Below are positions 14,800 to 18,024 of a stretch of DNA of 64,000 nucleotides, one piece after another. The first letter of the stretch is position 1, and every line of letters begins with the position of its first letter. Source of the stretch: Roseobacter weihaiensis (GTDB lineage Bacteria > Pseudomonadota > Alphaproteobacteria > Rhodobacterales > Rhodobacteraceae); NCBI RefSeq assembly GCF_020622345.1, contig NZ_JACNMO010000007.1:124001-188000 (forward strand), in the 5' to 3' direction. The notes under the pieces are model-generated. The model did not search any database and was not told the origin of the DNA. It saw nothing but the letters and a program-made list of their open reading frames with translations. A program made the position numbers and the translations under genes.

Positions 14800-15456
14800 A
14801 TGCGACAGGGCGCTGATCCAGCAACAGCATCGACGCCGCGTGTGACCCCGGATCAGCGGGAAACGGTCGGGCGCGATGGCCTTGAGCGCGACCAGGCAGG
14901 TGTTCCGGCGGTCGCGCGGCTTGGTCAATGGCAGAAGATGGCGAACAACAGCGCAGTGGTGCATGCCGGTGCCGCCCTGCAACGCAAAGCCACCGGCGCC
15001 GTCCTGCAGCTTGGCAGAAAGAAGGGGAGGAAAAAGGCCAAGGGCAAAACAATGTCGCTGGACGCTTTCCTGGCCGAGAACGCCGTGCCCCGGGAGGAGA
15101 CCTACGACGCGCTGGCCGAGGAAGGCACCATCTCACCACGTGAGCTGCGGTTCAGTCAGAGCGGGTGTACATCGTTCTTTCAGACGCCGTTCCCGGATGA
15201 AACCGGCAGCATGATCCGCACGGTGGCCGAGATGACGGCTGCCCTGCAGAACGGAACCCTTGATCCACAGACGACACCCCCGATCACCATTACATTTTTT
15301 GAGGGTGAGATCGTCAGCGTCGACAACCGTCGACTGAAAGCCCACAAGGATGCCGACGCCGATATCAGATATGTAAAGGTTGATTTCGACCAGCTCACAG
15401 AGAACCAGCAGTCCCATTTCGACGGCGGCACGTTCGACAACCTGCACGTCCGCTGA
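14800..15456 (+). CDS. Unknown protein with ParB-like toxin-type C-terminal region
   Basis: A 218-residue protein with no signal peptide or membrane segment. Residues 1-90 are low in conserved features and include a very basic patch (KKGRKKAKGK, 74-83). Residues about 115-195 show SQSG at 119-122, the stretch NGTLDPQTTPPITITFFEGE, and VDNRRL at 174-179. This order (SQS, acid-rich loop, PPI strand, DNRR) recalls the ParB-like domains at the C-termini of polymorphic toxins, as remembered rather than searched. The start is firm: GCGGAGG stands 6 bases before the ATG. No immunity-like gene is adjacent. A nuclease or DNA-binding role is inference only. Confidence 0.6.
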   Translation: MRQGADPATASTPRVTPDQRETVGRDGLERDQAGVPAVARLGQWQKMANNSAVVHAGAALQRKATGAVLQLGRKKGRKKAKGKTMSLDAFLAENAVPREETYDALAEEGTISPRELRFSQSGCTSFFQTPFPDETGSMIRTVAEMTAALQNGTLDPQTTPPITITFFEGEIVSVDNRRLKAHKDADADIRYVKVDFDQLTENQQSHFDGGTFDNLHVR

Positions 15457-16600: not shown

Positions 16601-16894
16601 ATGAAAACTAACGCACAGCGCTCAACTTTTACCGAAGCTGATTTGCTCGCCCCTACCGCCGACCTGCACGCCGGGGAGGCCACGGGCCTCTTTACCACTT
16701 CAATGGCACCTGCAGGCACCGATATGATGTGCGGTGACGGCACAGCTCTCTTCACCACCTCGATGGCACCCGAAGGCTGCGTCCTGGCAGGCGATGACAC
16801 CGGCCTTTACACCACAAGCATGGTGTCCGGGCGCGACGCCTTGTCGGGCGAGGCGACCGGGCTTTTCACCACGAGCATGACGCCGTCTTGCTGA
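16601..16894 (+). CDS. Small repeat protein with four TGLFTTSM-type repeats (possible multi-core peptide precursor)
   Basis: A 97-residue protein not recognised as any characterised family. Residues 1-22 look like a leader (MKTNAQRSTFTEADLLAP). Then an octamer recurs four times: TGLFTTSM 28-35, TALFTTSM 48-55, TGLYTTSM 67-74 and TGLFTTSM 86-93, with periods of 20, 19 and 19. Each is preceded by G-(E/D)-x and three are followed by a residue and Pro. Three cysteines lie between or after repeats (C44, C60, C97). There is no signal peptide or membrane segment. AAAGGG 7 bases before the ATG fixes the start. The layout resembles a ribosomal peptide precursor with repeated cores, but no known modification enzyme is adjacent; a short structural or binding protein is the alternative. 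Confidence 0.75.
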   Translation: MKTNAQRSTFTEADLLAPTADLHAGEATGLFTTSMAPAGTDMMCGDGTALFTTSMAPEGCVLAGDDTGLYTTSMVSGRDALSGEATGLFTTSMTPSC

Positions 16895-16907
16895 CCTGAC
16901 AAACGCG

Positions 16908-16935
16908 TGGACCGCGCAGGGGTACGCGTGGTCCA
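16908..16935 (+). promoter_or_regulatory. Hairpin between the repeat-protein gene and its partner
   Basis: TGGACC (16908-16913) pairs with GGTCCA (16930-16935), with one more G-U pair outside, across a 16-nt loop. ACGCGTGG is also repeated directly on both sides. It lies 14-41 bases after the stop of the repeat-protein gene and about 40 before the next start. There is no T-run, so it may act as an mRNA stability element or weak attenuator rather than an intrinsic terminator. Confidence 0.4.
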
Positions 16936-16974
16936 TCCGATCAAGATCCGCAAGAACCGATAAAGAGATCCCCC

Positions 16975-18024
16975 ATGTCCAATGTTGTTCCGATCGGTTT
17001 GCCACGCAGGCCGAATACCGCGCAGCGGCAAGCCGCTCTCATCAACAGCTTTGCCCGGCATCGACGGCAGCCTGAGGATGTCTTTTGGCTGAAGGAAAAC
17101 GCCGAAGTGCTGAATGTGCTGGCGACCGGCGGGGCCGCGCTGCCGGCGCAAAGCCTCGATGTTTTCAAGGGGTTTTACGACGGTCTGGAACAGCGGTTGC
17201 GATTTTTCCCGCAATACTACCGGTTTTTGCTGTCGATTTGCCTTGATCTCGAAGACCTCGGCTATGAGGGCGAAAAGGGCCGGGCGCTGTGTCAATGGGT
17301 GGCGCAGGCCGACCTGCCGACCTCGGAATTGTCCGATCTGCAACGCGCCGAGGCGCAACGTCTGCTGGCGCGCCGGGGGTGCGGCAGGCTGGACGGGGAT
17401 CTTGAACAGCGCCTGCGCCGTTTTATCGGCCATTCCGAAACCTTCGCGCTGCCCAACAAAAAAGCGGCCTATGAGCTGACCCACATCGTCTTTTATCTCT
17501 CTGAATACGGGAAACGTTCGCCCGGCCTGTCAGAAGCTGCGGTGGTCAGCCTCGAATTCGCGGGGCTTCTGGCCTATCTCGACCAAGACATTGATCTGCT
17601 TTCGGAAATCTGTGTCGCTTTGCGTTTTGCCGGAGAAACCCCAAGTGCTGTCTGGGAAGACTGGCTTTCGCGGGAGCTTGCCGGTTTCGTCCTGTCGGCG
17701 GCCCCCGATGGTCCTGCACCGGATGCCTATCACGAGTATTTGGTCACCAGCTGGTGGGCGGAGCTTGCCGGTCTGTCAGGGTTTCCTGGCATGCCGCAAA
17801 CGGCAGGGGTGATGGTCACACGGCATGCTACACGCAAGGGGCCGTTGCGGGCGATCTCAGAGGTCCTGTATGGGCTCGGCCCGGGGCGGACCGGCGACTG
17901 GGATCAGATGCGCGCGATCTTCGAACGAACTCTGGCCGCAGAGCATCAGCAGATCCTTGAAGGGGCTGCCCGATCCTCCACCCGGTTTGATGCGTTCTTC
18001 GCGGGATTTTCGCGCGCGATGTGA
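16975..18024 (+). CDS. Unknown 349-residue helical protein, partner of the repeat protein
   Basis: Not recognised as a characterised family. The sequence reads as mostly alpha-helical, soluble, without signal peptide or Walker, radical-SAM, ATP-grasp or protease motifs. Its most distinctive stretch is NKKAAYELTHIVFYLSEYG at 161-179, with H170; DAYHEYLVTSWW follows at 250-261 and FAGETPSAVWEDW at 218-230. The Y-x-L-T-H-x-x-F-Y pattern weakly recalls actinobacterial helical proteins of unknown function, from memory only. It starts 80 bp after the repeat-protein gene in the same direction with AAGAGA as ribosome binding site, so one operon is likely. It could be a maturation enzyme, chaperone or regulator of the repeat protein. 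Confidence 0.7.
   Translation: MSNVVPIGLPRRPNTAQRQAALINSFARHRRQPEDVFWLKENAEVLNVLATGGAALPAQSLDVFKGFYDGLEQRLRFFPQYYRFLLSICLDLEDLGYEGEKGRALCQWVAQADLPTSELSDLQRAEAQRLLARRGCGRLDGDLEQRLRRFIGHSETFALPNKKAAYELTHIVFYLSEYGKRSPGLSEAAVVSLEFAGLLAYLDQDIDLLSEICVALRFAGETPSAVWEDWLSRELAGFVLSAAPDGPAPDAYHEYLVTSWWAELAGLSGFPGMPQTAGVMVTRHATRKGPLRAISEVLYGLGPGRTGDWDQMRAIFERTLAAEHQQILEGAARSSTRFDAFFAGFSRAM

Follow-up and report, generated by a model that had tools for sequence, protein, structure and literature searches.

The gene pair in the window

The window analysed here, a stretch of 64,000 nucleotides from Roseobacter weihaiensis (contig NZ_JACNMO010000007.1, positions 124,001 to 188,000 of the forward strand), contains a pair of plus-strand genes separated by 80 bases, which are proposed to encode a peptide precursor with several cores and the enzyme that would modify it. 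The first gene (16601..16894) is an open reading frame (ORF) for a repeat protein of 97 amino acids (aa), which has orthologues located beside genes of the Pfam family DUF6902; the second gene (16975..18024) encodes the partner protein of 349 aa, the proposed peptide-modifying enzyme, which belongs to this family (PF21843) and is related to DUF6895 (PF21836). The repeat protein starts with a leader-like N-terminus (residues 1-24, 16601..16672, +), which in an alignment of 45 precursors precedes the first G-x5-F unit. It is followed on the same strand by the four core units TGLFTTSM (residues 28-35, 16682..16705), TALFTTSM (residues 48-55, 16742..16765), TGLYTTSM (residues 67-74, 16799..16822) and TGLFTTSM (residues 86-93, 16856..16879), the last of which is succeeded by the four-residue tail TPSC. 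The octamers are thus spaced with periods of 20, 19 and 19 residues. A preliminary description, made from the letters of the window, had given the lengths of both proteins, the four octamers, their period of 19-20 residues and the 80-bp gap, and all of these were confirmed by the ORFs. The three cysteines that it had also listed are present (residues 44, 60 and 97), but they are located in the linkers and the C-terminal tail, outside the cores, and are absent from the conserved columns of the 45-precursor alignment, and were therefore dropped as a defining feature.

When the 97-aa protein was shuffled 200000 times, two or more TTSM words appeared in just 18 of the shuffled sequences. The four cores are encoded by TTT ACC ACT TCA ATG, TTC ACC ACC TCG ATG, TAC ACC ACA AGC ATG and TTC ACC ACG AGC ATG, so that the same core serine is encoded variously by TCA, TCG and AGC; these different synonymous codons argue for conservation of the amino acids and not for a recent duplication of the DNA. 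The stretch of about 20-30 residues before the cores is partly conserved in the 45 precursors. The start pattern M-x-A-[LQIVR]-[RLHQK] is fitted by 44 of 74 precursors, and MKTNA of the window lies outside this pattern.

The repeat protein has no above-cut-off match in Pfam or NCBIfam and no match in PHROGs or PADLOC, and the 45 precursors including that of the window have no Pfam match at E up to 0.01. The lack of a recognised identity noted in the preliminary description therefore holds for the repeat protein in these four libraries but not for the partner, which matches DUF6902 with 473.1 bits (cut-off 27) over residues 1-348. The anti-phage defence models of PADLOC gave no families for either protein at E up to 0.01. 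A scan for promoters and terminators yielded no convincing signal for the pair; the two promoter-like sites and the single terminator-like site that it gave are minus-strand ones.

Distribution of the pair and concerted change of the cores

Co-occurrence was counted across the window's family, for which 198 genomes were taken, each representing one genus. A DUF6902 match was obtained in 55 of these and a match to the precursor profile in 51, every one of them among the 55, and no precursor was matched by the profile in the 143 genomes without DUF6902. Among the DUF6902 genomes without a profile match, G041 and G099 have two-core precursors that were recognised by eye, with the cores YIAGL (locus L114) and MMCCS (locus L119), G139 has just a piece of the enzyme, at the edge of a contig, and the fourth, G039, has a divergent DUF6902 ORF and no precursor. 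For the analysis of adjacency, genome contigs were searched for DUF6902 and the best 80 of 302 confirmed loci were used together with the window; the organisms named for these 80 loci belong, as far as the titles tell, to Rhodobacteraceae or roseobacter genera. In 79 of the 81 loci a short repeat ORF was detected by script directly upstream of DUF6902, with a median gap of 65 bases. The two loci missed by the script are L018, in which the contig reaches only 85 bases upstream and LFTTSC-stop is the end that can be seen, and L067, which has three unlike cores. Two equal tetramers suffice for the script, which takes an off-register word in L038, L043, L044 and L048 and counts one near-match too many in some precursors, e.g. 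L007, L031 and L032; read in this way, the script gives repeat numbers between 2 and 15, and up to 20 repeats are found in L083. Co-occurrence and varying repeat number had been set beforehand as a check on the preliminary description, and both results, together with the adjacency, support its proposal that the pair is a peptide-type system in which the partner matures the repeat protein. A short gene located beside DUF6902 and co-occurring with it is the arrangement of a pathway for ribosomally synthesised and post-translationally modified peptides (RiPPs), in which the short gene's product would be modified by the neighbour.

Repeat units were defined by the anchor G-x5-[FY], which is blind to the core letters. 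Three or more units were obtained for 74 of the 79 precursors (467 units), and the five precursors with fewer than three anchored units were excluded from the unit analysis. The core types include FTTSM, FSSGS, FTSSL and FTSWS. Core tetramer identity is 0.946 within and 0.435 between proteins, the corresponding values for the linkers being 0.28 and 0.15, and all tetramers are alike in 62 of the 74 precursors, as compared with 0.19 on average and never more than 2 in 2000 permutations. Misreadings of the anchor account for a few of the 12 non-uniform precursors (L026, L044, L075), and true mixtures of cores are found in L013, L038, L048, L050, L071 and L072, with FSSGS and FSTSC together in L038, L050 and L071. 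Within precursors, 53% of the same-residue core pairs (2877/5398) are encoded by different codons.

Between species the cores change in concert. The enzymes of L010 and L017 are 96% identical and the linkers of their precursors are similar, yet every FSSGS in one precursor is FTSGS in the other, and the changed serine of the L010 cores is encoded by four different codons. On the DUF6902 tree, 27 changes of core type were counted (69 rows, 22 types), versus at least 45 in 300 shuffles. The C-terminus coincides with the end of a core in at least 62 of the 79 precursors, which suggests that the product could end with the last core residue. None of the core side chains is shared by all precursors, and the core YIAGL of L114 contains neither serine, threonine nor cysteine.

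The pair is located at a largely fixed position, in the order xthA (-), pair (+), iron-sulfur assembly gene (-), dgt (+) and argS (+). In the window these neighbours were assigned by NCBIfam as exonuclease III, iron-sulfur assembly protein, dGTPase and arginine-tRNA ligase, and an HNH-type gene near the pair gave a sub-cut-off match only. Of the 80 loci, 74 have xthA within 2.5 kb, 73 the iron-sulfur gene and 72 dgt. No peptidase or regulator was noticed between the flanking genes. In 51 of the 80 loci an EamA-like transporter gene comes next on the same strand, its match beginning 6-145 bases beyond the point where DUF6902 nominally ends; L027 was not judged because its contig stops there, and Pfam confirmed EamA for four such genes of other genomes (L124, L129, L131 and L148). 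In the gammaproteobacterium of L148 the three genes stand in the same order, with cores of the GTELFGCYT type. Since the three-gene state is the commoner one and is also found in this distant locus, we infer that the pair of the window is a reduced form of a three-gene unit, the transporter having probably been lost, as opposed to never gained, in its lineage. In all four Pfam-confirmed examples (L124, L129, L131 and L148) the mechanically called start codon of EamA overlaps the DUF6902 stop codon, and these transporters are candidate exporters of very short peptides.

The partner protein and its DUF6895 relatives

In addition to DUF6902, the partner matches DUF6895 with 82.2 bits (cut-off 23.8). 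The comparison of DUF6902 with nine DUF6895 proteins by hhalign gave a probability of 97.1% (E 5.5e-11, columns 79-236, 17% identity), and on this profile evidence and the shared invariant residues given below, DUF6902 is placed within a DUF6895-like superfamily. The AlphaFold2 model of the partner is nearly all-helical, with a mean predicted local distance difference test score (pLDDT) of 93.6 and a predicted template modelling score of 0.91, in agreement with the helical protein of the preliminary description. Sequence profiles compared with the sequences of the PDB gave one match for DUF6902 (E 0.5) and none for DUF6895. ATP-grasp, radical SAM, YcaO or LanM-type domains were not found in the partner by a Pfam scan at E up to 1.

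A joint MAFFT alignment revealed five residues that are identical in 71 of 71 DUF6902 and 12 of 12 DUF6895 proteins, namely His170 (17482..17484, +), Gly179, Asp207 (17593..17595, +), Glu211 (17605..17607, +) and His253 (17731..17733, +); many other residues fixed inside DUF6902 are not common to DUF6895. His253 is located outside the stretch aligned by hhalign, and its match rests on the MAFFT alignment and a YH motif. Judged from its sequence, the partner looks like an enzyme. The DUF6902 part of the alignment (A1) comprises 71 of the 81 sequences from the window and the 80 loci; L058 with its internal stop, the contig-cut copy of L027, and L003, L019, L030, L041, L042, L047, L054 and L076, which are near copies or were omitted for list length, were left out. 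A strict regular expression for three enzyme motifs was fitted by 65 of the 71 rows of A1, 33 of 36 other DUF6902 ORFs and 11 of 12 DUF6895 proteins, and was superseded by the aligned columns for the 71 and 12 proteins. At L058 (8001-9050) the DUF6902 gene with the internal stop codon lies beside a precursor ORF with FTSSM cores and represents either a pseudogene or a sequencing error.

Key residues and repeat gene are jointly absent from one genus. In G039 and three relatives a divergent DUF6902 ORF with 108-189 bits occupies the same locus; in G039 the aligned positions of H170, D207, E211 and H253 are occupied by Q, L, R and T, and the TH and YH motifs are missing from the three relatives, as read by eye. 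No repeat ORF was found between xthA and the DUF6902 ORF of the four genomes in any forward frame, the 7.0-11.0 kb scanned around each of the four loci yielded no ORF in which a tetramer occurs three times, and no transporter is located between the DUF6902 ORF and the next gene. A joint absence of residues and repeat gene is what an enzyme and its substrate would predict, and it probably represents a single evolutionary event. The loci of this genus, L201, L202, L203 (7.0-7.5 kb each) and L112, retain, between xthA and the iron-sulfur gene, a DUF6902 ORF that is intact, has neither His170 nor His253 and has no precursor beside it.

DUF6895 is rare. Matches were found in 13 of 398 genomes of the phylum, DUF6902 genes included, in 9 of 321 genomes in the class of G379, two of these matches being DUF6902-like (L148, L149), in 4 of 289 genomes in the class of G303, and additionally in six plasmid records. 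A small precursor-like ORF is located upstream in 10 of 17 DUF6895-type loci from Pseudomonadota, Actinomycetota and Bacillota, directly beside the DUF6895 gene in seven and with a gene between in three; an upstream small gene is therefore common in the superfamily and not peculiar to roseobacters. The seven directly adjoining ORFs (L135:5506-5703, L136:6437-6868, L137:5269-5685, L144:6708-6905, L145:6398-6658, L146:6467-6685 and L156:2349-2585) contain the leader-like pattern [LI]-x-x-[SA]-[GN]-[IL]-[ILV]-[DN], with I at the first place in L156. Six of them have a W/Y-rich core, single or double, e.g. GYVLAWDKYVLVV or DWTFVSPNYVYKGS, and P0003 of L145 fits loosely. By these motifs, the leader and W/Y-core ORFs are a putative further kind of precursor within this enzyme superfamily, distinct from that of the DUF6902 loci. 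The two groups are alike in the homologous enzyme, the invariant His/Asp/Glu/His set and the small upstream ORF, but differ in the one or two W/Y-rich cores of the DUF6895 loci versus the 2-20 short aromatic-x-x-x-x cores of the DUF6902 precursors. In three Streptomyces/Kitasatospora loci one gene separates the small ORF from DUF6895, and this small ORF differs in type, with LLLSP occurring near its end.

Several further observations were made at DUF6895 loci. The Streptomyces/Kitasatospora plasmid clusters L147:4833-8688, L187:4987-9025 and L188:4914-7909 combine an LLLSP peptide, a protein of 231-248 aa, one or two DUF6895 genes and a serine hydrolase; the 231-248 aa protein has no Pfam match in the two clusters for which it was scanned, and the serine hydrolase is annotated in L147 and L188, L187 being without a gene table. 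In L135 (3771-4406) a C39-like/C70 papain-type peptidase, possibly a processing protease there, is encoded two genes before the small ORF. L150, in the class of G379, gave a sub-threshold match to the C-terminus of squalene-hopene cyclase (18 bits versus 26), a hint that the fold may have originated from an alpha-alpha toroid.

Proposed peptide pathway and alternative explanations

According to the proposed mechanism, the 97-aa protein would consist of a short leader and four copies of the core x-x-[FY]-T-T-S-M in variable linkers. DUF6902 would recognise each core and act via His170, Asp207, Glu211 and His253. By the relation to DUF6895, the likeliest reaction would be an inversion at the alpha-carbon (L to D), maybe at or near the C-terminal residue of the core, where most precursors end. 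Several short peptides of identical sequence would then be released by a peptidase whose gene lies at another place in the genome, and the EamA transporter, where it is present, would export them. A multi-core precursor with a dedicated modifying enzyme is considered probable. Epimerisation is put tentatively, at somewhat below even odds, as the leading guess for the reaction, since cores such as YIAGL without serine, threonine or cysteine exclude a general chemistry on these side chains, while alpha-carbon inversion would be general. For the statement as a whole, a multi-core precursor with its modifying enzyme and epimerisation as the leading guess, a probability of about 0.6 is estimated.

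The pair was compared with known peptide systems. Graspetides and cyanobactins have multi-core RiPP precursors with near-identical cores after one leader and an adjoining enzyme gene. The pair of the window resembles them in its near-identical cores, its putative leader and the adjoining gene of the proposed enzyme, but its partner lacks the ATP-grasp, radical SAM, YcaO and LanM-type domains, the core tetramer is nearly uniform per precursor, and the locus between housekeeping genes is fixed in most of the 80 loci. The pair does not qualify as a lasso-peptide pathway, as neither a lasso cyclase (C macrolactam synthetase) nor a B peptidase is found among its immediate neighbours, farther genes not having been scanned, and the flanks are alike in most of the 80 loci. 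MslH of the MS-271 pathway is described as a metal-dependent lasso-peptide epimerase acting on the C-terminal residue of a ribosomal peptide (PMC10406935). It would share the kind of reaction with DUF6902, if DUF6902 epimerises, and is set apart by description and not by sequence, the Pfam matches of the partner being DUF6902 and DUF6895 only. The fold of MslH is of another kind, and its pathway has a single core.

Several points weigh against the proposed pathway. The epimerase assignment goes back to a single title (ACS Catal. 2026, doi 10.1021/acscatal.5c08590) within the references of PMC13352647, in which one DUF6895 protein is named lasso-peptide epimerase, and DUF6902 is a separate Pfam family. 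Neither a modified peptide nor a protease or receptor is known for the system, and no peptidase gene was noticed in the conserved neighbourhood. Foldseek comparison of the DUF6902 model with the PDB gave no match at E up to 0.001 (best E 0.033); this same result is in favour of the preliminary description, which would have been refuted by a clear structural match of the pair to a known non-peptide system. The locus of the window has no EamA gene, and a transporter query against the window genome gave seven matches, the best with 32% identity, and no close copy; on this one query, a relocated transporter copy is not claimed. Transporter presence changes 8 times on the enzyme tree, where gain and loss are indistinguishable. 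The divergent DUF6902 ORF is intact in all four genomes of G039's genus, and the protein without the key residues may keep some role, possibly a non-catalytic one. In the wider family, six loci in the class of G379, L150-L155, match DUF6895 over the cut-off (36-52 bits), but the roughly 1.5 kb upstream of them contain no precursor-like ORF of at least 40 aa on their strand, and the DUF6895 locus L132 is a doubtful case.

The alternatives differ in what they concern. Short-peptide signalling, in which the cores would be a species-specific pheromone whatever their modification, bears on the role of the product and does not compete on mechanism. It would suit the near-uniform core of each precursor with its concerted switch between close relatives, the many copies per precursor and the adjoining transporter in 51 of 80 loci, but no receptor or regulator was found between the flanking genes, of which xthA, the iron-sulfur gene, dgt, argS, the HNH gene and EamA were the ones checked, by name only, and such a role is regarded as doubtful. 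Somewhat less likely still is a different reaction of the same pair, such as dehydration of serine and threonine, backbone cyclisation, oxidation or cleavage, possibly metal-dependent with the two histidines and two acids as the metal site. The two invariant histidines and two invariant carboxylates would fit either a metal centre or acid/base catalysis, and serine, threonine and glycine are abundant in most cores. Against this, the cores YIAGL (L114) and MMCCS (L119) argue that a chemistry tied to serine and threonine would not be general, and the sole function met for a relative is, by the title mentioned above, that of an epimerase.

The preliminary description had put a structural repeat protein with its chaperone on an equal footing with maturation. 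In this improbable alternative, the repeat protein would be structural or for storage, and DUF6902 would bind each core and cause no chemical change. The all-helical partner, for which no enzyme fold is recognised, the multiple identical binding sites, a core type that tracks the enzyme tree and the intact DUF6902 ORF without His170 and His253 in one genus would all agree with a binder. However, the His/Asp/Glu/His set is among the residues invariant over 83 distant proteins, the genus that lacks these histidines also lacks the repeat gene, the DUF6895 relatives are accompanied by small ORFs of very different kinds, in part single-core ones, and an adjoining EamA transporter suits a small product. 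Maturation is favoured because the invariant set is common to DUF6895, one member of which is titled an epimerase, and because the repeat gene is missing where His170 and His253 are missing. A chance low-complexity ORF beside an unrelated conserved gene is refuted by the genome counts and by the conserved cores with variable linkers and synonymous codon changes, even though repeat ORFs can arise in GC-rich genomes and some antisense ones were seen.

If the proposed pathway is correct, a peptide pathway for which no description was found would exist in about a quarter of the sampled genera of the family (55/198). In the literature searched, DUF6902 was not mentioned, DUF6895 was named once, nothing was found under DUF6749, and no publication joined RiPP, Rhodobacteraceae and precursor peptide. 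Rhodobacteraceae are abundant in the sea. The partner would be a compact enzyme by which genetically encoded peptides could be given D-residues or some other modification, and would represent an enzyme family without a known fold match, and the concerted change of the cores would be a natural record of enzyme-substrate co-evolution. Two small genes with four built-in substrate copies per precursor make an easily tested set-up. On a wider and speculative view, which we consider unlikely as a whole, DUF6902 and DUF6895 would form an all-helical superfamily of peptide epimerases, cofactor-free or metal-using, with their own small precursors in at least three phyla; its Rhodobacterales branch would produce many identical short D-residue peptides from a fixed locus, mostly with export by EamA, and the concerted cores would make them a species-specific signal and an undescribed RiPP class.

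Elsewhere in the window, at 14800-15456, an ORF of 218 aa contains a short AALQRKATGAVLQL stretch and has no Pfam match; this stretch presumably resembles proteins carried by contractile injection systems.

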